Source: Halonotius roseus
GTDB lineage: Archaea > Halobacteriota > Halobacteria > Halobacteriales > Haloferacaceae
DNA length: 64,000 bases
NCBI RefSeq assembly: GCF_006861655.1
Contig: NZ_SESI01000003.1
Coordinates: 186,001 to 250,000 of the forward strand
Direction: 5' to 3'
Shown here in pieces: positions 53,232-63,803 of this stretch. Position numbers and translations under genes: made by a program. The stretch's first letter is position 1, and every line of letters begins with the position of its first letter. The notes under the pieces were generated by a model. It saw only the letters and a program-made list of their open reading frames with translations. It searched no databases and was not told where the DNA came from.

Positions 53232-54068
53232 TCACTCACCGAGCGGATCGGGTGCCGGCGGCATCGAACGCTTGTGCTCGCTGTCCGCAACAAGGGATTC
53301 GACACGCCGGATCTGGTCGTGGTCGACGCCGTCGAGCGTGCGCAGCGTCGCCGCCGTCGACAGCGGGCCATCGACGTGGAGTGCGAGGATTGCGTCTACG
53401 GTATCGTAATCGAGCCCGAGCTCATCCTCATCGGTTTGGCCGTCCCACATCCCGGCGGTCGGCGTCTGGGCGACGAGATCGGCGGGGACACCCACGGAGT
53501 CAGCGAGCTGTCGCACCTGCTGTTTGTAGAGCCCGCCGATAGGGTTACAGTCGACGGCCTGATCGCCGTACTTCGTGAAGTAGCCGGTCATCGCCTCCGC
53601 GCGGTTGCCGGTGCCGAGAACGACCCGATCTTCGGCGTTGGCGACAAAGTAGTTGAGCACGGCGCGCGTGCGAACGTAGACATTACCCATCGCCATTCGA
53701 TCCTCGGTCGCGCTGGGAACGGCCTCGAAGATCTGCTCGGCGATCGGCTGGATCTCGATGATATCGTACTCGATGCCTAACTCCTCGGCGACGCGCTCGG
53801 CATCGCTCATGTTGTCCGGGTTGTTGACCTCGCTGGGCATGACGAGCCCATGGAGGCCGTCGGTACCGAGGGCCTCGACGGCGAGATAGGCGGTTGTCGT
53901 CGAGTCGATGCCGCCCGAGAGGCCGAGCGTCGCGCCATCGGCGTCAGCATCATCGACGGTGTCCTCGATAAACGAGACGAGCGTCTCGCGGACGGTTTCG
54001 AGTTCGGACGCCGAAAACCGGAGGTCAAGCGGGGCGGATTCAGAGAGGACGGGCGTGGTAGCGGACAT
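53232..54068 (-). CDS. nadE: NH3-dependent NAD+ synthetase
   Basis: This 278-residue N-type ATP pyrophosphatase makes NAD from deamido-NAD and ammonia. The PP-loop is LGLSGGIDSTTTAYLAVEAL (SGGIDST), and the synthetase motifs GTGNRAEAMTGYFTKYGDQA and KQQVRQLADSVGVPADLVAQ follow. There is no glutaminase domain, hence the use of ammonia. Start at 54068 (MSATTPVLSES). Upstream is the AT-rich region of the tubulin-like operon, with a TTATTAG element about 24 bp before the start. Confidence 0.95.
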   Translation of the reverse strand: MSATTPVLSESAPLDLRFSASELETVRETLVSFIEDTVDDADADGATLGLSGGIDSTTTAYLAVEALGTDGLHGLVMPSEVNNPDNMSDAERVAEELGIEYDIIEIQPIAEQIFEAVPSATEDRMAMGNVYVRTRAVLNYFVANAEDRVVLGTGNRAEAMTGYFTKYGDQAVDCNPIGGLYKQQVRQLADSVGVPADLVAQTPTAGMWDGQTDEDELGLDYDTVDAILALHVDGPLSTAATLRTLDGVDHDQIRRVESLVADSEHKRSMPPAPDPLGE

Positions 54069-54283
54069 AACACACATGTGGTCTGGATGAACTAATAACC
54101 TTCTCCCAGGAACAAAAGCGGGGCAATTGATTACAGTATAACGAATATACCCGGAGTACAGTTGGGACGTAGCATCAGAGATCCTATAGAGATATCAATA
54201 CATTATTTCACTAATCAATTATTTGACTGTATTTTGTCAATCGGGAATTTTATTGGATACTGTAATAACTTATCGTTCGAAGG
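54069..54283. other. AT-rich divergent promoter region of nadE and the tubulin-like operon
   Basis: This 215-bp stretch is markedly richer in A/T than the surrounding chromosome. TTGAC (54223-54227) and GTCAA (54236-54240) form an inverted repeat about 43 bp before the ATG at 54284, a candidate operator. TTTATTGG about 30-37 bp before the ATG is the likely TATA element. No gene is seen. Confidence 0.5.
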
Positions 54284-57200
54284 ATGAACCTCCCAGACAG
54301 AATATTTGCCGTAGGCGGGGCAGGGAAAGCCGTTACCTACGAGTTATTGGGTGCAACGTGGGTGCAGGAAGCGGTGTTGCAGCCGCGGCCTGATCCACGT
54401 TCGTTGACAGTAACAATAATCGATACCGCCGAGGAAGAGGAAAACCGTGATTTCGAGCGAATCCATGAGCTCGAAGAAGAGATCCAAGAGACGAAAGATC
54501 GGCTCAGAGAGGAGAGTGATGGACGCGGCCGTCCCGGTGAGATCACCATCGAGTATCTCCCGCTGACCCGGAACATTCAGCTCCACGATCAAAACGACCT
54601 GATCGGCGAATCGGCGGTGCCACGGATCGCATCAGGAAAGGGGATGAGCGAGGACAACTGGTGGCTCAAACCGGAGTTCATCAACGAGAACCTTGATTTT
54701 GCCACCGGCGTCGTTCGGAAGCGCGGGCTTGGCAAGGGGTTGTACTACAAGGCGTATGCCGAAGACGACGACGTTCGCACCTCGATCGACCTCCCGCGGC
54801 GAGGGAAGGTAGCGGTGATCGCCGGACTGGGAGGCGGATCAGGTTCAGGCATCTTTATCGATCTCGTCCGCGATCTTAAACAGACGAACCGAACGGCCGA
54901 GATGACGCTGTTTGGCATTCTACCGAACGACGATGAGGGAGATGCCGAAACCGCAAACGCACACGCCGCCCTCTCGGAGATGGAGTATCTGAGCCTCCAA
55001 GGCGAGGATATCTTCAAGGATAAGATACTGGTACCGATTGATCCGACCGGGTTCGGAGGGAAGAAGGCAAACATCCTCCAGTCATCGGACGCACTGATCG
55101 AGTTTGACCGTGCGATGGTCTATCTCATCGCAACCTACTACAACATGATGGATATGGAGGATCCGTTCGCCGATCTTCCCTCCTACGCGCCATTTATCAT
55201 CGGCGTGCCACAGGTCGTTCGCTACAACGTCGATGAGATACAGGACGCAAAATCGGTGATGAGTGAAATCCTGACGGCCAAACAAGACGCCTCCGAGGCG
55301 GAGGCGGATATCTATGCAGGGGTCGATCGGTTCCTCTCCAGAGAGTGGAGTCCCGAGGGGCCGGAAGGTGAGCTTCATGACGCAGATCGCTCCGATCTTG
55401 AAACGCGGCTCGAAGAGATCAAATCGCTGCTTGAGTTCGACCTCTTCACCGAACTGGAGTACGAATCGGTCTCGATTTACAAGGACATCATCTCACAGGC
55501 CGAGTCGGAATCCGAAGATATCACCGAACAGATCGAGGTGATCGGTGGATCGATCCGAGCCGGGACAACAGATGTCGGCGGCGAAGCCGATCAGTTCGTC
55601 GACAGCACCGACAAACAGCTCGGTGATGTCGCAAAGAACGCGCTGAAACGGCTGGCACAGCGAAAGGATCTGCTCTACCGACTTCGAGGGATCGATGATA
55701 CGCAGGTACAGAACACGATCAGCTACCTGCTCGCGTTAGAAACCGACACGGTCAGCCCAGGGGTCAGACTCAATCAGCTCGAAGCAAAGCTTGAGGACGC
55801 CCAAGAGCGAAAAGAGCGGCTTACAGCTGACCTCGAAGAGACTGCCGCGGAGTTGGAAGAGCAGCGTCGGAAACAGCAGGATGAGATCGACCGACAGGTC
55901 GACAACTGGGATCATGCTGCGCGACCGATCTACGAGGAGTACACCGAATGTCAATCGATCCCGGTTGAGTCGATCACCGATGATCTGGAGGTGGCACTCG
56001 ACGAGTACGCCAGAGAGGTCGAAAACGCCGATTCCGAGGAGCTTGTTGAATCGCTCAACGATGCGGAGGTGCGGAGCGCGCTGAATGAACTCTCCGATGA
56101 GTTCGAGTCACTGGGGATCAGTAGCAGCGACATAAAACGGCGTATCAACTCCTCGCTGAAGGATCTGCAGGCCGTTCGAAGCGCGTTTATCAAGATGAAC
56201 GAGGAGGAGGGAACCCTCGAATCGTTGGCGCCATGGGAAACTTCCTCAGAGGAAGAACGCGAGGAAGCACAGCGAAACTACCGGATGAAGACGAATCAAC
56301 TCGAAGACAAGGAGGTGTTTACCGTCTCAAGAACCGGTGATTCGATCTCTATCGACGCTGAGTTCGATGGACGAGAGCTGGTTAGAACCGTCGAAGACGA
56401 AATCGATCACCGACGGCAGTCGCTTCTCAGTGAGGCACGATCGGTTCTTGAGGAGGAGCACTCCTCGGCGATGGACGAGCTCCAACGACAGCTTGAGGAT
56501 AGTGCGAGCTTCGGTGATCTCACCATGATCATCGAGGAATGCATCGAAGAGGAGGTCTTAGAGACAGAGGAGATTCAGGCACGCCACGACGAGCTTGAAT
56601 CTGATCTGGAAGCGGCAGAGAAATCCGTCGAACGGTACGACGGAACCGCTGACCTGTTCGAGGAGCTGAACAAGCCACGCGAAAAGCTGCTCACCGCCGA
56701 AGAGGAGTATCGAGACCACCAGACAGAGTACGAGGAAAGCCGGGATACCGATGTCGCCACACAGGACGAATCCTACGACTACATCAAAACGATTCAGCCC
56801 CAAAACATCCTCCAGATACGGGAGGATACCGATATCGGTCAGAGTAAGCTCTTCGACGATCAGACGGAACGACAGCGACTCCGTGGCTCGCTCGAAGAGT
56901 TAGCGCGGAAAGCACAGGATCCACAGTACACCGGGCTCAGAAAACGTCGGATCAGCGACGATCGAGCGCGGTACAACGAGATGAACCTCGTTGTCGGTGT
57001 GATGAGCCAGGCGATCGATTCGATCGGCGACGTTGCCGACCTCGAAGGCGAATTCAAGGGAGCCTACAACCTCGGGGCCGGCGGTGAAAACTACGCCTCG
57101 TTCCCGGTTGAGGCCGGCGGAAACTGGGATGTCGGTCTCGGAATGTTCATCGGCGGGATCTTCCTTGATAATCTCCGTGCGGAGGTTGAGGCCGACGGCT

Positions 57201-57454
57201 ACCACACCGGTTACAAAGCCCGTGAGGGAGCGGAGGATACGGACATCCTTGTCCACCACAACCACAAGCTTGACGAAGGGTGGTATGTCAGGCGGACAGA
57301 TGTGCTCAACATGGAGAATCAAAACGATGTCAGGTTCTTCCTGCGAGATGAGGCCGAGATCAGGGAGGATCTTCTGAACGACTACCTCGAAACGGTGCGG
57401 TTCAGTGATACAGCCGAAACAGATGATCAGGTTGAGACGGATACGGAACGATGA
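54284..57454 (+). CDS. Tubulin/FtsZ-superfamily protein with coiled-coil regions
   Basis: A 1056-residue protein. The N-terminal domain has the tubulin-like GTP-site signature: AVGGAGKAVTYELL (residues 9-22) for the first loop, IIDTAEEEE (45-53), and the glycine-rich T4 motif GLGGGSGSGIFIDLVRDLKQ (181-200, with GGGSGSG like GGGTGSG). It belongs to the divergent Tubulin_2-like group, not FtsZ or CetZ. Residues about 480-610 and 720-900 are Glu/Arg-rich coiled coils. The C-terminal 120 residues form a conserved domain with GAYNLGAGGENYASFPVEAG. No membrane segment. First gene of a four-gene set, it overlaps the membrane GTPase gene by 4 nt. Confidence 0.88.
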   Translation: MNLPDRIFAVGGAGKAVTYELLGATWVQEAVLQPRPDPRSLTVTIIDTAEEEENRDFERIHELEEEIQETKDRLREESDGRGRPGEITIEYLPLTRNIQLHDQNDLIGESAVPRIASGKGMSEDNWWLKPEFINENLDFATGVVRKRGLGKGLYYKAYAEDDDVRTSIDLPRRGKVAVIAGLGGGSGSGIFIDLVRDLKQTNRTAEMTLFGILPNDDEGDAETANAHAALSEMEYLSLQGEDIFKDKILVPIDPTGFGGKKANILQSSDALIEFDRAMVYLIATYYNMMDMEDPFADLPSYAPFIIGVPQVVRYNVDEIQDAKSVMSEILTAKQDASEAEADIYAGVDRFLSREWSPEGPEGELHDADRSDLETRLEEIKSLLEFDLFTELEYESVSIYKDIISQAESESEDITEQIEVIGGSIRAGTTDVGGEADQFVDSTDKQLGDVAKNALKRLAQRKDLLYRLRGIDDTQVQNTISYLLALETDTVSPGVRLNQLEAKLEDAQERKERLTADLEETAAELEEQRRKQQDEIDRQVDNWDHAARPIYEEYTECQSIPVESITDDLEVALDEYAREVENADSEELVESLNDAEVRSALNELSDEFESLGISSSDIKRRINSSLKDLQAVRSAFIKMNEEEGTLESLAPWETSSEEEREEAQRNYRMKTNQLEDKEVFTVSRTGDSISIDAEFDGRELVRTVEDEIDHRRQSLLSEARSVLEEEHSSAMDELQRQLEDSASFGDLTMIIEECIEEEVLETEEIQARHDELESDLEAAEKSVERYDGTADLFEELNKPREKLLTAEEEYRDHQTEYEESRDTDVATQDESYDYIKTIQPQNILQIREDTDIGQSKLFDDQTERQRLRGSLEELARKAQDPQYTGLRKRRISDDRARYNEMNLVVGVMSQAIDSIGDVADLEGEFKGAYNLGAGGENYASFPVEAGGNWDVGLGMFIGGIFLDNLRAEVEADGYHTGYKAREGAEDTDILVHHNHKLDEGWYVRRTDVLNMENQNDVRFFLRDEAEIREDLLNDYLETVRFSDTAETDDQVETDTER

Positions 57455-58896
57455 GTTTCGGAGACCTAATTAGGGACAACAGCGAAAAACTGCGGCTCGT
57501 CGGCTACTTCGTCGTCGTGATCGCCGTCGCCGCACCGCTGTTTAGCTCACTCGGAGAGGCGTGGCAACGGTCAGACATCTTCAAACAGCTCATCCAGACA
57601 CCAGGAGCCCTCGGAATCGTCAGCGTCGAACAGCTGTCAGCGTTTCTGTTTGGGGTGTACGCTGGCCTACTCTTGCTGTTGATCCTTGATCCGAAAAAGC
57701 GGATTCAAGGGTTGTTACTCGGGTTTGGAACGATCTCGGCACTGATCGCGCTGCAATCTCAGGGGCTATTCCTCCCGAATATCGATTTTGTTGCTAATAT
57801 CCCCCTCGTTGTGGGTGGTGTCGTACTTGGCGGAATCGCCGGCGGCGGACGAAACCTCTTCGAAATTCAGACCGCTGACGCACTCGAGTTCCGGCGTGCA
57901 GCCAGCCTGCTGTTTTTCATCCTCTCGGCAATCACCATCGTCGGGTTGATCGAGTATCACGTCAGCTTCCCACAGGTCATCAATCCTGTTTTCGGGGAAG
58001 GAACGGTAGATATTGTTGTTCCAGACAACCCGTCGGTAGAGTTCAACTCCGGCGGACTCATTGGAAATGTCGTCCTCTCGGTGATATTCATCGTCACGTT
58101 GCGGAGCTTCTTCGAGTACGACTCGGCTGAAGACTTCTTTATTCTCGGCCCGGTTGGCTCGGGGAAATCGCTCTTCTTGGTCGGTAAGTATCTCGAAGCA
58201 CTCGACGATGCAGCCGCCCGGGACGCAGACACACCGATGACACCGAGTGCGGATCTCATGGAGCTGGTCAGCGAGGTTGATGCCGCATCCGAGGACGCGG
58301 GCTGGGAGCTCGGTGCAACTGCCGTCGACGATGTGAAAAATCTGGAGTTTAATTACGTCAAAGGAAGCGTTTTCCCGAAAAACATCCGTATCGGGAGCCT
58401 CGACTACGCCGGTGAGTATCTCGATCAGTTGCCGAATGCGTTGGCGAGCGCACCCGAGGAGATCGACGACTCGATCCTCCGGCGGCTCGCCCAGCGGGTG
58501 CGGGAAGCTAACACCCTGGTGTTGATTCTCGATATGGAGCGATACGAGGGCGATGAATCGCTGGGTATCGAGTCCTATTTCGACATCCTAGATGCGACTG
58601 ACAGCACCAAAGTGCTGCTCGTGGCAACAAAATGTGACGTGCTAGCCGAGGAGTTCGAAGACGAGATGGGCCTTGATCCGGTGATGTACTTCGACGATTT
58701 CAAAGACTACGTCAACGAGACGCTTGTCCAGAACGATCAGACGGTTCGGACACTGGTACAGGACACTGCTGGGTCGGAGATCCATCCGGTGTACTATCAG
58801 ACGACCGAGCGAAACGGCGAGCGGGTGCCGATGCGGGATGTAAACGGGAACGTACAGACGATGGGATTCAACGAACTGCTCGACAAGATGGGGTGA
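57451..58896 (+). CDS. Polytopic membrane protein with Ras-like GTPase domain
   Basis: A 481-residue protein. The N-terminal half has about six membrane helices (residues 17-35, 61-79, 86-104, 113-131, 151-169 and 202-220). The C-terminal half is a P-loop GTPase: Walker A GPVGSGKS (233-240), G3-like DYAGE (318-322), a Walker-B-like LVLILDMERYEG region, and G4-like TKCD (393-396). So it resembles a membrane-tethered Ras/SRP-type switch facing the cytoplasm. It shares an ATGA overlap with the tubulin-like gene, so the two are translationally coupled. Confidence 0.85.
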   Translation: MSFGDLIRDNSEKLRLVGYFVVVIAVAAPLFSSLGEAWQRSDIFKQLIQTPGALGIVSVEQLSAFLFGVYAGLLLLLILDPKKRIQGLLLGFGTISALIALQSQGLFLPNIDFVANIPLVVGGVVLGGIAGGGRNLFEIQTADALEFRRAASLLFFILSAITIVGLIEYHVSFPQVINPVFGEGTVDIVVPDNPSVEFNSGGLIGNVVLSVIFIVTLRSFFEYDSAEDFFILGPVGSGKSLFLVGKYLEALDDAAARDADTPMTPSADLMELVSEVDAASEDAGWELGATAVDDVKNLEFNYVKGSVFPKNIRIGSLDYAGEYLDQLPNALASAPEEIDDSILRRLAQRVREANTLVLILDMERYEGDESLGIESYFDILDATDSTKVLLVATKCDVLAEEFEDEMGLDPVMYFDDFKDYVNETLVQNDQTVRTLVQDTAGSEIHPVYYQTTERNGERVPMRDVNGNVQTMGFNELLDKMG

Positions 58897-58902
58897 TCAA
58901 TC

Positions 58903-60546
58903 ATGTCAACACTCACAGTTTACGACGCACAAGGAAACGAATACTCCCCAACAGGTGATGCAACGGGGACGAACCAGCGAATCAAACAGATGGCCCTCGC
59001 AAGCTTGCGAGTTGCTATCAAACCAACCGAGCGGCAGGTGACCGGCTACTTCCGCGCGAAGGAAACACCGAACTCGCGGGCCGAACAGTTCTACGGCGAG
59101 TACACCGATCGGAACACCGCCGAACCGCTCACCGACTTTGTCAACGCCGTTCGCACGCAGATCGATGAGTGGAACCACACACTTGACGAGTCAGATGACT
59201 CGATGGCGGTATTCAACGCGCTGACGAACCAGCGGCGCGCGACGGTACCCGGCACGGATAAAGATATCCGGATTCTAGAGGAGTTGGCCGGTGATCGGGA
59301 GGTTGCAGCTGTCGGTGTCTCCAGCGCGAACGAGGCCGTCGGGCTGTTACAGGAGTTTGCCGATGAACACTCGGTAGCGATCGCGGACTCCACAAACACC
59401 GACGCACTCTCGGAGTTCGATATCGTCATCGCCACCGGTCGGCATCAGGGTATCGAGCCACTCGGCCAGACGACAGGACGGTGGAAGGAGGCGAAGCAGT
59501 CGCTCAAACGGGAGCTTGTCGACGAAGAGATCAGCTCAATTACGGAGTCAGTCCGAACGCTCAAGCGAGACTTTGGGCTGTCGAGCGGTGAGATCCAGCG
59601 AAAAGTCTCAGGGCTTGAGGCCCCCGGTTCAAGCGGTGGAGGACGCTCACAGCTCGGTGGCTCTGCGTCGACCGGTGAGAAGCTGAAGCGAACGCTTCTG
59701 TCGCCGCAGGTTGGGAAGTATCTGTTTATTGGGGCGATCGTTTTGATCGTGCTGATTGGTGGATACTTTGGTGCAACTCAATTGGGTATTTTAGGATCAC
59801 CACCTGAAATCAGTGGAGAAGTTGTTGATGAAAATGGGGAACCAATTTCCAATGCAAGCGTTACAATAACAAATCCGGATGGAAATATCAATCCGGCTAA
59901 TCAGAATGAAACATCGGAGTATACTGCCACAACAGATAATAATGGGGAGTATAGCTTAGAATTAGAGAGCGGAGAAGGGACATATGATATATCATACGAT
60001 GGTGAATCATATGAAGATGTAGAACCGCCGAATGCAAGCATTGATTTCCCCAAAGAAGAGAGCAGTCCGGATTCAAGTGGAAACGAGTCTTCTGGATCAA
60101 TCATTCCAGACTGGTTGCCAGTCGGTGGAAGTAGCAGTCAAAACAGTGATACACAAAATAGCGGCTCCGAAAGTGGGAGTCAAGAGACTGAGGGAGACAC
60201 AAGTACTAGTGGATCTGAAAGTGATAGCGGAAACCAAGAACAAGTATTTCGCTTTTTGAATGGTACTGTTGTAGATCGGAACGGAAATCCTGTTTCATTT
60301 GCTAATGTTTCCATTGAATACGGGAGTGGTGAAAAATTAACGGAAGAACAACAAACAGGACAGGATGGCCAATACCGATACGAAAATGTCCCGTATGAAG
60401 GAAATATTCAGAATATAACATTAGTTTGGAAAGCAAATGAGGAAGGATATATCCAAGAAAATACAGAAAGTCTGGATTTAGGTGAATTTTTAAGTAATGA
60501 GGAAGACGGTGTTTCGAGGGAGATTCAGCTGACTCAAGAGGCGTAA
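58903..60546 (+). CDS. Single-pass protein with extracellular beta-sandwich repeats
   Basis: A 547-residue protein. Residues 1-265 are cytoplasmic and acidic, with no recognised domain. A single membrane helix spans residues 271-293 (GKYLFIGAIVLIVLIGGYFG). The C-terminal 250 residues lie outside: a carboxypeptidase-regulatory-like beta domain (about 300-375, ISGEVVDENGEPISNASVTI), a Ser/Asn/Asp linker, and a second such domain (about 448-545, LNGTVVDRNGNPVSFANVSI). DNA before residue 283 is GC-rich and after it AT-rich. It follows the GTPase gene by 6 nt, in the same operon. Confidence 0.8.
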   Translation: MSTLTVYDAQGNEYSPTGDATGTNQRIKQMALASLRVAIKPTERQVTGYFRAKETPNSRAEQFYGEYTDRNTAEPLTDFVNAVRTQIDEWNHTLDESDDSMAVFNALTNQRRATVPGTDKDIRILEELAGDREVAAVGVSSANEAVGLLQEFADEHSVAIADSTNTDALSEFDIVIATGRHQGIEPLGQTTGRWKEAKQSLKRELVDEEISSITESVRTLKRDFGLSSGEIQRKVSGLEAPGSSGGGRSQLGGSASTGEKLKRTLLSPQVGKYLFIGAIVLIVLIGGYFGATQLGILGSPPEISGEVVDENGEPISNASVTITNPDGNINPANQNETSEYTATTDNNGEYSLELESGEGTYDISYDGESYEDVEPPNASIDFPKEESSPDSSGNESSGSIIPDWLPVGGSSSQNSDTQNSGSESGSQETEGDTSTSGSESDSGNQEQVFRFLNGTVVDRNGNPVSFANVSIEYGSGEKLTEEQQTGQDGQYRYENVPYEGNIQNITLVWKANEEGYIQENTESLDLGEFLSNEEDGVSREIQLTQEA

Positions 60547-60640
60547 ATCTTAGATATCTGATGAATAGTAAGGGTGCTGCTGAAAATTGTTGAAAACATA
60601 CCCAGAATCTTTTTTACCACTATCAGTATGTCATCCAATA

Positions 60641-62911
60641 ATGAACAACGAGAAAATAAATGCCGTTGATGAATTACGCGGGAAACCAACACGGCGACGG
60701 GTGCTACATACAACTGCGGTCGCAGCCGGTGTTCTCGGTGGCGTGACAGCCAGCAGCACCAATGTGACAGCACAGGAAGAAGCAGGCAACGAACAGTGGT
60801 CGTTCAACACTGGGGGAACGATCACCTCCTCACCCACGATCGTCGACTCCTTCGTCTACTTCGGCAGCGACGACGGTAACATATACTCCCTGAACGCCTC
60901 CAACGCGTTCGAACGGTGGGCGTTTTCGACCGGTGGCAGCGTCCAGTCGTCACCGACCGTGGTGAGTGGTATTGTCTTTGTCGGGAGCCAGGACAACACC
61001 CTCTATGCGATCAACGCCGAATCCGGTGAGGAAGAGTGGGCCTTCAGCACTGGCGGAGCTGTCAACTCATCGCCAACAGTCGTCGATGGAACAATCTTCG
61101 TTGGGAGTAACGACGGAACAGTATATGCTGTAAGTGCCTCATCGGGACAGGAAGCGTGGACGTACGAGACCGGCGGAGCCGTCGAATCATCTCCGGTCGT
61201 TGTCAACGGAAGCGTCTTCGTCGGCAGCGATGACGGCACGTTGTATGCGATCAACGCCGACTCGGGTGAGGAACAGTGGACGTTCGAGACCGGTGGCAGT
61301 ATCCAGCGATCACCGACGGTGGCAAACGAAACAGTCTATGCCAGTAGTGAAGACGATGTGCTGTACGCTGTCAGCGCATCTGGCGGTGAAGAGCAGTGGA
61401 CGTTCGAATCCGAGTTTGGTGACCTCTCGACGCCAACCGTGGCGTCGGCGGGCTCGTTCGTCAGAGACACCGTCTTCGTCGGTGATCTCACCGGAACAGT
61501 GTACGCGCTGAACGCGGAACTCGGCGGAAGCCGATGGGAGAACGATCTCCAAGATGGCACTGGGACACCGACCGTTGTTCAATCAAACGTCTTTTTCGGG
61601 AACCGAAACGCCACCTACGCGCTCGATGTGGACACCGGCTCCGTCGATTGGGATATCAATTCCGAGATGACCTCCACTCCGACCGTTGCCGACGGAACGA
61701 TGTATTTCGGTAGTGGATCCACTCTCCGTGCGATTAACTCCGGTACCACATCATCAAGCGAGGGATCACGGACAAGACTCGGGACACTGGGCCATCCACC
61801 CGATTGGGCGTATGCTGATCAGACGATCGAAATCGATACCGAAGCACCACCATCAGGTGACGATGACAGTCCGCCAACAGACGATGGGGACGACAGCCCA
61901 CCAGCAGATGATGGGGACGATAGCCCGCCAGTAAACGATGACGACGGCCCGCCACCGTCAAACCCCGATGATGGCCTCGGGATGGTTGCCGCCGGCGGAG
62001 CCGGTGTCGCTGTGCTCGCGGGCATCGGAGGAGCCTACAAATGGCTCAGCAGTTCAGATAGCGATCGACAGCAGCGGGATAGCTTTGAGGAGGAGACACC
62101 GTCGGAATCACCCGATGTCCAAGATGAGGTAATCGAAGCAACTGATACGGCAGACGCCACAGATGATGTCGACCCGGATGTGCTCCGAGACGATGCCGAT
62201 GAACTCGTTGTCGATGCGACTGCGGCCCGAGAAGAGGGGGATTTGGCGACAGCCATCTCACTGTATGATGAAGCTCTCGATCTCTACAGGACAGCAGCCG
62301 ACGAGATCGACGACGAAGACACCAAAGACGAGCTGAAAGAGACGATCGCACAGACTAACTCCGATCGGGAAACACTCAGTCAGATCCAGAGCCGGCGTGG
62401 CGACCTCACGGAGGCGTTACAGCTCGGCGAGACAAGTTTCCAGACAGCAGTTGCAGCCCATGTGAACGGCGAGTACACTGTTGCCAAGCTTCGGTACCGA
62501 CAGGCCCGCGATCAGTATCAGCGCGCGCTGGACGAGCTCACAGGAAGTGACCACGAGCTGCTCAGTGAAGCGGTGCAGGTGGCTGTCGACCGCGAAAAGG
62601 ATATCAGCCCAGGAGCAGTTTCGACGGTGATCGATCTCTCCGAGGAGACGATCGACGCGCTCACAGAGGCCGGCATCGAGACGGTGGCTGATCTACAGGA
62701 TGCACAGACAACGTCAGCAGACGATGGTGAGATCGAAACGATCAATCCGGTCGAAGAGCTTCGGGAGGAAGGGACGATCACGGAGGAGGTAGCCGCACAG
62801 CTCACCGCACTGTACTGGTGGCACGATCAGGAAACGTACCAGGTTACGACCGAGGCGGCGATCCGTCAGCGATACGATCAGTCATCGGCCGGATACGAGG
62901 CAACAAAATAG
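60641..62911 (+). CDS. Tat-exported PQQ-propeller receptor with cytoplasmic TPR/HhH tail
   Basis: A 756-residue protein. A twin-arginine leader (TRRRVLHTTAVAAGVLGGVT) is followed by seven or more PQQ-type blades (each near ...VFVGSDDGTLYAINADSGEE) forming a beta-propeller of about 320 residues outside the cell. An Asp/Pro linker (DDGDDSPPADDGDDSPP) leads to a membrane helix (GMVAAGGAGVAVLAGIGGAY). Inside are an acidic region, a TPR-like helix pair (AAREEGDLATAISLYDEALD) and a helix-hairpin-helix (ETIDALTEAGIETVADLQDA). It has its own T-rich promoter-like spacer after the preceding gene. Confidence 0.82.
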   Translation: MNNEKINAVDELRGKPTRRRVLHTTAVAAGVLGGVTASSTNVTAQEEAGNEQWSFNTGGTITSSPTIVDSFVYFGSDDGNIYSLNASNAFERWAFSTGGSVQSSPTVVSGIVFVGSQDNTLYAINAESGEEEWAFSTGGAVNSSPTVVDGTIFVGSNDGTVYAVSASSGQEAWTYETGGAVESSPVVVNGSVFVGSDDGTLYAINADSGEEQWTFETGGSIQRSPTVANETVYASSEDDVLYAVSASGGEEQWTFESEFGDLSTPTVASAGSFVRDTVFVGDLTGTVYALNAELGGSRWENDLQDGTGTPTVVQSNVFFGNRNATYALDVDTGSVDWDINSEMTSTPTVADGTMYFGSGSTLRAINSGTTSSSEGSRTRLGTLGHPPDWAYADQTIEIDTEAPPSGDDDSPPTDDGDDSPPADDGDDSPPVNDDDGPPPSNPDDGLGMVAAGGAGVAVLAGIGGAYKWLSSSDSDRQQRDSFEEETPSESPDVQDEVIEATDTADATDDVDPDVLRDDADELVVDATAAREEGDLATAISLYDEALDLYRTAADEIDDEDTKDELKETIAQTNSDRETLSQIQSRRGDLTEALQLGETSFQTAVAAHVNGEYTVAKLRYRQARDQYQRALDELTGSDHELLSEAVQVAVDREKDISPGAVSTVIDLSEETIDALTEAGIETVADLQDAQTTSADDGEIETINPVEELREEGTITEEVAAQLTALYWWHDQETYQVTTEAAIRQRYDQSSAGYEATK

Positions 62912-62966
62912 CGCAACCGGATCGAACCAGCGGGTTTATTTTTCCAGGCGCACACCAGTTTTCCGT

Positions 62967-63037
62967 GCGCCGTTGGTCCAGTGGTAGGACAGAGCCTTCC
63001 CAAGGCTCTAGCCCGGGTTCAATTCCCGGACGGCGCA
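62967..63037 (+). tRNA. tRNA-Gly (anticodon CCC)
   Basis: The cloverleaf can be drawn by hand. Acceptor GCGCCGT (62967-62973) pairs with ACGGCGC (63030-63036), with discriminator A at 63037. The anticodon stem GAGCC/GGCTC encloses the loop TTCCCAA (anticodon CCC, 62999-63001). The T-arm CCGGG TTCAATT CCCGG is complete. CCA is not encoded. It lies 55 bp after the PQQ-receptor gene. Confidence 0.93.
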
Positions 63038-63092
63038 TGGTACTATCCCTACACGCTGAGTGGAGAAACCGTTAAAATCACGCGTACTGAGG

Positions 63093-63803
63093 CTACGATG
63101 AGGACTCTCGTTGGCGCAGATATTGGACAGAGAGTCCGACACTGAATGCGAGAACCGCAACCGGAACGGAAAAGCCGCCGTCGGCAGCGAACGACACGGT
63201 GTTACCCTGAATGACCTGCATCCAAATCGGGGCAGTGTTGGCTAACAGTGCGGCCCCAAGTCCGGTCAAACAGATGCTCATCAACACGTCGTAGTTCCGC
63301 ATCGCAACGATACCGGCAACGATCCCGACAACAGCCGCGATCCCGAGAATTCGGATCAGTTCTTCCTGTGGCAGTGCAGCAAACCGAAACAGATCAAGGG
63401 CGGCAAGCGGCGAAGATTCGATCCCGGTCGACGCCACCTCACGTGGTGTCGCTTCTATTTCACGGCCGAGAAGCGTAAAGAAAACCGCCGCAACGCCGGC
63501 GGTAAACCCGGCGATCCCAGCAGCGTATCGGGTGGCCATACGGATGAGCCCGGCACCCAAAAGCGCGCCAACAGCTGTGAGTACAGCAGTTATTGCCAGA
63601 ATCTGTGAGGTCTCGAAACCACCATTTGAGATCAGACGTGGGAGACCGATCCAGCCGATTGCACCGCCAGCGGCCCCGCCACCGATCCAGCCGATCACGT
63701 TTAGAATGGTATCCGCTAAGTTGTAGCCGGCGACGGCCAATAAGAGACCAACGAGGGTTACGGTACCGAGAATCGTTGCAGTAAGTGGATCAATACCGAT
63801 CAT
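63093..63803 (-). CDS. Multi-helix membrane protein, unknown function
   Basis: A 236-residue protein that is hydrophobic over nearly its full length, with about seven membrane helices (IGIDPLTATILGTVTLVGLL at the N-terminus, and GGFSVPVAVLAFSVGLSVQY near the end). A short basic C-terminus (YLRQRESSS) follows. No recognised family. It may resemble small haloarchaeal membrane proteins with Gly-rich helices. It converges on the tRNA-Gly and lies beside the tubulin-like gene cluster, but has no visible link to it. Confidence 0.65.
   Translation of the reverse strand: MIGIDPLTATILGTVTLVGLLLAVAGYNLADTILNVIGWIGGGAAGGAIGWIGLPRLISNGGFETSQILAITAVLTAVGALLGAGLIRMATRYAAGIAGFTAGVAAVFFTLLGREIEATPREVASTGIESSPLAALDLFRFAALPQEELIRILGIAAVVGIVAGIVAMRNYDVLMSICLTGLGAALLANTAPIWMQVIQGNTVSFAADGGFSVPVAVLAFSVGLSVQYLRQRESSS

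Follow-up and report, generated by a model that had tools for sequence, protein, structure and literature searches.

An FtsZl1 tubulin-like protein encoded with a membrane GTPase and a surface protein of variable ectodomain on an inserted low-GC island of Halonotius roseus

FtsZl1 (Pfam PF13809, Tubulin_2) was described in 2010 from Halorhabdus utahensis (Huta_2050-2056), where it is encoded together with a membrane GTPase and kinases, and a function in membrane remodelling was proposed (Makarova & Koonin, PMC2875224). According to the main text of that paper, the proteins are characterized by a long coiled coil followed by a mostly helical C-terminal domain, and by an accompanying diverged GTPase with a TxKD-type motif that is membrane-bound in archaea; a vWA-domain protein is present in most FtsZl1 operons and protein kinases are found nearby. 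A second group of comparable systems, the bacterial GAP1-N2 DO-GTPase systems, is described in the main text of Kaur et al. 2020 (PMC7159879); these occur in mobile neighbourhoods with tubulin/coiled-coil, HSP70/DnaJ or kinase variants, and the partner encoded downstream of the GTPase can bear a C-terminal transmembrane segment and cadherin domains. Here we analysed four adjacent genes (A to D) in a 64,000-nucleotide stretch of Halonotius roseus, a haloarchaeon whose family also includes Halorubrum (contig NZ_SESI01000003.1, positions 186,001 to 250,000; hereafter the window). Genes A, B and C constitute a recurrent FtsZl1 unit, with D as a variable accessory, and the whole is located on a segment that a congener lacks.

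A first-pass annotation of the window had singled out four adjacent genes on one strand at 54284-62911, the first three tightly coupled. The open reading frames bear this out: all four are on the plus strand, A and B overlap by 4 nucleotides, and B and C are separated by 6 nucleotides. The coding features, in window numbering, are:

54284..57454, plus strand: gene A, FtsZl1/Tubulin_2 protein of 1056 residues
54830..54850, plus strand: T4 nucleotide-binding loop GGGSGSG in the sequence of A (residues 183-189)
57451..58896, plus strand: gene B, membrane GTPase of 481 residues
58903..60546, plus strand: gene C, single-pass protein of 547 residues
58903..59610, plus strand: CN domain, the conserved, cytoplasmic third-gene domain (residues 1-236 of C, by profile)
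60641..62911, plus strand: gene D, PQQ propeller protein with a signal of the twin-arginine translocation (Tat) type (listed start TTG 60587, likely start ATG 60641)
62036..62908, plus strand: DT domain, the cytoplasmic tail of D

By sequence, A and B belong to the FtsZl1 system, and the core of the module is thus not new. The type locus of H. utahensis (L051) is 44% identical in A, 47% in B and 29% in C (the latter over the cytoplasmic part), and its FtsZl1 protein aligns with A from end to end. As in the described system, A has an FtsZ-like N-terminal domain, a long coiled coil and a C-terminal domain, and adjoins the gene of a membrane GTPase. Unlike that system, the module in the window has no vWA or OmpA gene; vWA was found neither among A-D nor among the scanned flanking proteins, and one such gene lies beside a divergent relative. 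Kinase-like proteins, which adjoin A in many loci and flank it on both sides in H. utahensis, are replaced in the window by the PQQ propeller protein with its TPR/HhH-like (helix-hairpin-helix) tail; the closest kinase found at this locus is encoded ∼10 kb away, at 73054, in a stretch of backbone genes that the congener also has. The initial view that no described system has this combination could not be maintained for the core, which is present in PMC2875224, and a tubulin, a DO-GTPase and a membrane-tethered partner occur together in PMC7159879.

The distribution of the genes was surveyed in 294 haloarchaeal species genomes, with a threshold of E < 1e-15 for FtsZl1. Positive genomes numbered 37 for FtsZl1, 44 for B, 36 for CN and 10 for the D tail. 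B was present in 37/37 FtsZl1 genomes and CN in 33/37 (nominal p-values from Fisher tests, 3e-40 and 9e-36), and all 36 CN genomes also contained B. Across the loci, A and B, and likewise B and C, for the most part overlap or are a few nucleotides apart. The proposal of a conserved four-gene block therefore holds for A-B-C and fails for the complete set, because D was seen directly downstream of the trio only in the window and in Halohasta. The trio was also detected on plasmid pMETEV01 (L154) of Methanohalobium evestigatum, which is a methanogen and belongs to a different class, with B and C confirmed by profile. On that plasmid, the genes of a TnpB and of an S-layer-type (surface-layer) protein are located near the trio. 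A divergent haloarchaeal clade (L064-L072, L105, L106 and L113) often has two B-type GTPases, some of them without a P-loop, and in some of its loci DnaJ, Hsp70, VWA or Mrr-type nuclease genes are neighbours; with its two GTPases, DnaJ, Hsp70 and VWA, this clade links the FtsZl1 and DO-GTPase descriptions.

A scored above the cut-off of the Tubulin_2 model PF13809 (E-value 1e-7) and below that of Tubulin/FtsZ (PF00091). In the genome of Haloferax volcanii, taken as a control, nothing matched Tubulin_2. The protein comprises a tubulin nucleotide-binding domain (residues 1-∼318), a coiled-coil/helical stalk (∼319-823) and a C-terminal domain (∼825-1040). Among 45 sequences G183, G184 and G189 of the T4 loop are invariant. 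A profile built from 45 homologues hit PDB chains of TubZ, FtsZ and tubulin, with residues ∼153-229 as the matched region. The AlphaFold model (predicted local distance difference test score, pLDDT, of 85) shows long, highly charged helices at ∼366-819, after which the C-terminal domain is of mixed helix/strand composition. When the model was compared with the PDB by Foldseek, the best matches were all tubulin/FtsZ, with OdinTubulin at the top (E 8e-5); target-normalised template-modelling scores of 0.30-0.54 indicate that the fold similarity is only partial. Profile and predicted structure thus identify A as a member of the tubulin superfamily with a tubulin fold, as the first-pass annotation had anticipated.

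The canonical relatives closest to the profile of A are the CetZ proteins of the same genomes, which have the T4 loop and the GxLPxxDEG...NA region in common with it; the alignment covers 58 columns, from T4 to H5, and A departs from CetZ in its stalk and in its C-terminal domain. Past the nucleotide-binding core (T6-H7-T7 and the C-terminal domain), A was not matched to canonical FtsZ, CetZ or tubulin by profile alignment, with PF00091 below its cut-off, and the main text of PMC2875224 describes T6-H7 as not identifiable in FtsZl1. The model of A contains a strand at 246-251, a 26-residue helix at 264-289, an acidic loop EDPFADLP and a strand at 304-314; the order of these predicted elements matches S6-H7-T7-S7, which we take as a lead only, supported by the model and by local motifs and not by profile alignment. 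Paralogs of A without the stalk (560-562 residues) are encoded in Halorubrum aquaticum and H. rubrum (L060, L100 and L101). An alignment of the 562-residue paralog with A covers residues 1-∼320 and ∼802-1038. These two parts are directly joined in the paralogs, which makes the stalk look like an insertion that separates two domains. In these paralogs the T4 loop is degenerate, and no adjoining B homologue was found at the three loci.

B is, as judged from its motifs and predicted structure, a membrane-embedded GTPase with a Ras/Rho-like G domain, in line with its first description. The AlphaFold model (pLDDT 82) has six helices of membrane length within residues ∼11-222, and the even number of predicted spans would place both ends of the protein in the cytoplasm. 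The G domain (∼225-481) follows these helices, carries the motifs GPVGSGKS (G1, with K239), DYAG(E) (G3) and TKCD (G4, with D396), and matched Rac, Cdc42 and Rab structures in the PDB (Foldseek, E ∼1e-4). Among the B proteins of the window's clade GPxxSGKS, DYAGE and ATKxD are nearly invariant. No homologue of B was found in the phage collection.

C had been recognised from the outset as a single-pass beta-sandwich protein, and both features were recovered. One transmembrane segment is located at residues 274-292, and a basic stretch before it together with N-glycosylation sequons after it supports an N-in, C-out topology; the ectodomain has two CarboxypepD_reg matches (Pfam) of the beta-sandwich type. 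The CN domain did not match any Pfam family. In the relatives of C the CN domain is kept, and the exported part consists of CarboxypepD_reg, CARDB, other beta-sandwiches or almost nothing. C is thus a constant cytoplasmic domain with a swapped ectodomain.

The module sits on an inserted island of low guanine plus cytosine (GC) content, 0.50-0.58 in genes A-D versus 0.63-0.64 outside. Its boundaries are:

54036..62966, no strand: insert with nadE on one side and tRNA-Gly(CCC) on the other, missing in the congener (G066)
62966..63038, plus strand: tRNA-Gly(CCC), which bounds the insert and belongs to the flank, outside the module

In the congener, nadE is followed by a short gap and then by an identical tRNA-Gly, downstream of which the genes of both genomes are collinear. 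This empty site indicates that the module was gained in H. roseus or, less likely, lost in the congener. Direct repeats of the integrase type were not seen flanking the insert, and no integrase was found. The location of relatives' loci on plasmids is consistent with a mobile history.

Just past the tRNA gene, at 63093-63803 on the minus strand, is the gene of a 236-residue multi-pass membrane protein with no family assigned; it does not occur at the matching place in the congener and was possibly acquired as well. A TnpB gene of the IS605 type (L053:10127-11359) is present downstream of the window, among backbone genes.

D has a Tat-type signal, a PQQ beta-propeller ectodomain (PQQ_2, 1e-48), one transmembrane segment and a cytoplasmic TPR/HhH-like tail with a weak MIT/TPR signal (MIT 7e-6, below the cut-off), as had been read from the sequence at first. 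Since ATG 60641 directly precedes the twin-arginine signal, the TTG listed as the start, at 60587, probably lies upstream of the true one; the gap between C and D is then ∼94 nucleotides and D may have its own promoter. All ten of the genomes with the D tail also have FtsZl1 (p = 3e-10; by genus 6/6, p = 2e-4). Six of them encode the tail near FtsZl1; fusions of the tail to CARDB, to HEAT repeats or to a lone transmembrane segment occur elsewhere. In other genomes, D-type genes are upstream of the trio, inverted, unlinked or absent, and in Halorubrum a nearby PQQ protein instead carries a region likened to a protein kinase by phmmer and unscored by Pfam. A four-gene operon was rejected, as D does not constantly adjoin the trio; D is a variable accessory that is statistically tied to FtsZl1 genomes. 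The genome of H. roseus contains four copies of the tail. One of the paralogs (L134:7031-8539) is a HEAT-repeat fusion in which no export signal was seen, and this family member appears to lie entirely in the cytoplasm.

How could these proteins work together? We give an even chance to a scheme in which this FtsZl1 module, carried by a mobile island, passes transmembrane input through a G-protein switch in the membrane to a tubulin-like assembly. A would be a stalked tubulin-like GTPase in the cytoplasm and B a Ras/Rho-type switch held in the membrane. C would couple B, and thereby A, to the outside, with the CN domain physically binding the switch and the variable beta-sandwich ectodomain meeting the S-layer or an external ligand. 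D would serve as an accessory transmembrane input, its propeller outside and its tail docked on the module, in place of which other species may use kinase-like proteins. Signalling would run inwards: sensing by an ectodomain, or a kinase input, would change the nucleotide state of B, which would then recruit or release A at the membrane, and assembly of A into a polymer would locally reshape or reinforce the envelope. Remodelling of envelope or shape is our first choice of output on the basis of the tubulin fold and the S-layer-type ectodomains. The original suggestion of a polymer controlled from outside by sensing proteins is plausible. A wider version, a transferable archaeal pathway in which exchangeable receptors control a stalked tubulin-like polymer via a membrane Ras/Rho-like switch and the TPR/HhH tail of D is a dedicated, previously unreported docking domain, is possible but rather doubtful.

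Several observations weigh against switch-controlled assembly of A. The Fisher tests treat genomes as independent and ignore shared ancestry, which overstates their significance. The genomes span 21 genera, and this speaks against common descent as the sole explanation of the co-occurrence. Seven genomes have B but no FtsZl1, with only FtsZ/CetZ-type matches or none, and in six of these loci the CN domain adjoins B (local profile, some scores weak), which suggests that the B-C pair can act without A. The catalytic T7 loop of FtsZ could not be aligned in A by the profile, which makes polymer-coupled GTP hydrolysis by A uncertain, and conservation of the acidic EDPFAD residues that follow the putative H7 is confined to the window's clade. 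D is not a conserved neighbour of the trio. Finally, our literature search found no experiment on any archaeal FtsZl1 protein.

The main rival reading places the locus among the DO-GTPase 'conflict' systems, as their haloarchaeal branch, with B as threshold switch, C as GAP1-like partner fused to a transmembrane segment and an ectodomain, and A as nucleoside triphosphate-driven assembly or effector, acting in defence against viruses or competitors, or in cell death, and not in shape. We consider this unlikely, although the designs are similar: a GTPase, a downstream partner with optional transmembrane segment and ectodomain, a coiled-coil tubulin, variable accessories and a plasmid or island setting are common to both, the gene order agrees with the systems in the main text of PMC7159879, divergent relatives have DnaJ, Hsp70, VWA and a second GTPase nearby, and B has the glutamate of DYAGE. 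DO-GTPase2 matched 9 of 28 B homologues marginally (E 0.001-0.05), all below the curated cut-off and partly as a generic P-loop, and did not match the window's own B; a genome scan with the DO-GTPase model PF19993 yielded nothing over the cut-off, only generic P-loops. C occupies the place of the GAP1 partner with its transmembrane segment and ectodomain, but its CN domain matched no GAP1 model. FNIII and vWA proteins are absent from the locus, the window's island contains no toxin-like effector, and PADLOC gave no defence match for A-D except for a marginal coiled-coil one. B and C thus fit the DO-GTPase layout but not its models, and we claim similarity in design, not membership.

Two other explanations concern the surface proteins. 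The module could be a membrane-remodelling or vesicle machinery without a sensory role, in which C and D merely anchor the assembly to the S-layer. Remodelling is what the main text of PMC2875224 proposes for FtsZl1, and the beta-sandwich ectodomains of C resemble structural repeats; the kinase-like and TPR/HhH tails and the exchangeable ectodomains look more like signal input, and we regard an anchoring role as improbable. It is very improbable that D is an unrelated PQQ gene placed by chance beside an FtsZl1 unit of three genes. PQQ propellers are common in haloarchaea, and D has its own start region and is not always found beside the trio, but the restriction of its tail to FtsZl1-positive genomes, in six of ten of which it is near FtsZl1, speaks against this.

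As far as the main texts of PMC2875224 and PMC7159879 show, the following are new: the counts of how often the three parts occur together in haloarchaea, the division of C into a constant inner and a variable outer part, the family of D tails with its tie to FtsZl1, the paralogs that lack the stalk, the structure predictions for A and B, and the vacant insertion site. PQQ is unmentioned in both main texts; an earlier listing of C or of PQQ neighbours in the supplementary gene tables is possible. FtsZl1 is among the most divergent tubulin relatives, and we found no experimental study of it since 2010. In haloarchaea it is strictly linked to a membrane G protein, and in nearly all cases a surface protein with an exchangeable head completes the unit. 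Islands and plasmids carry the unit from genome to genome, and a cytoplasmic tail that recurs is the mark of additional partners. The interactions thus named can be tested in archaea open to genetics, among the carriers of the module for example Haloarcula japonica or a Halorubrum strain, and they offer a way to decide between the published guesses of membrane remodelling and defence. Should the exchangeable-receptor reading be true, it would amount to receptor-to-tubulin signalling outside eukaryotes.

A link to the endosomal sorting complex required for transport (ESCRT) was considered and rejected, since the candidate CdvB/Vps4-like pair, ∼7.5 kb downstream of the module, lies in the chromosomal backbone of the congener. 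The pair is located past the window end, at 70419-72281 in window numbering (L053:11420-13279), and consists of a 235-residue coiled-coil protein and an AAA ATPase. The coiled-coil protein, whose match to CdvB was not significant, was found in 14/294 genomes, two of them with FtsZl1, which is no more than expected. The ATPase matched the CdvC model over its full length, below the cut-off, and the two proteins are possibly a Cdv/ESCRT-like pair in haloarchaea.

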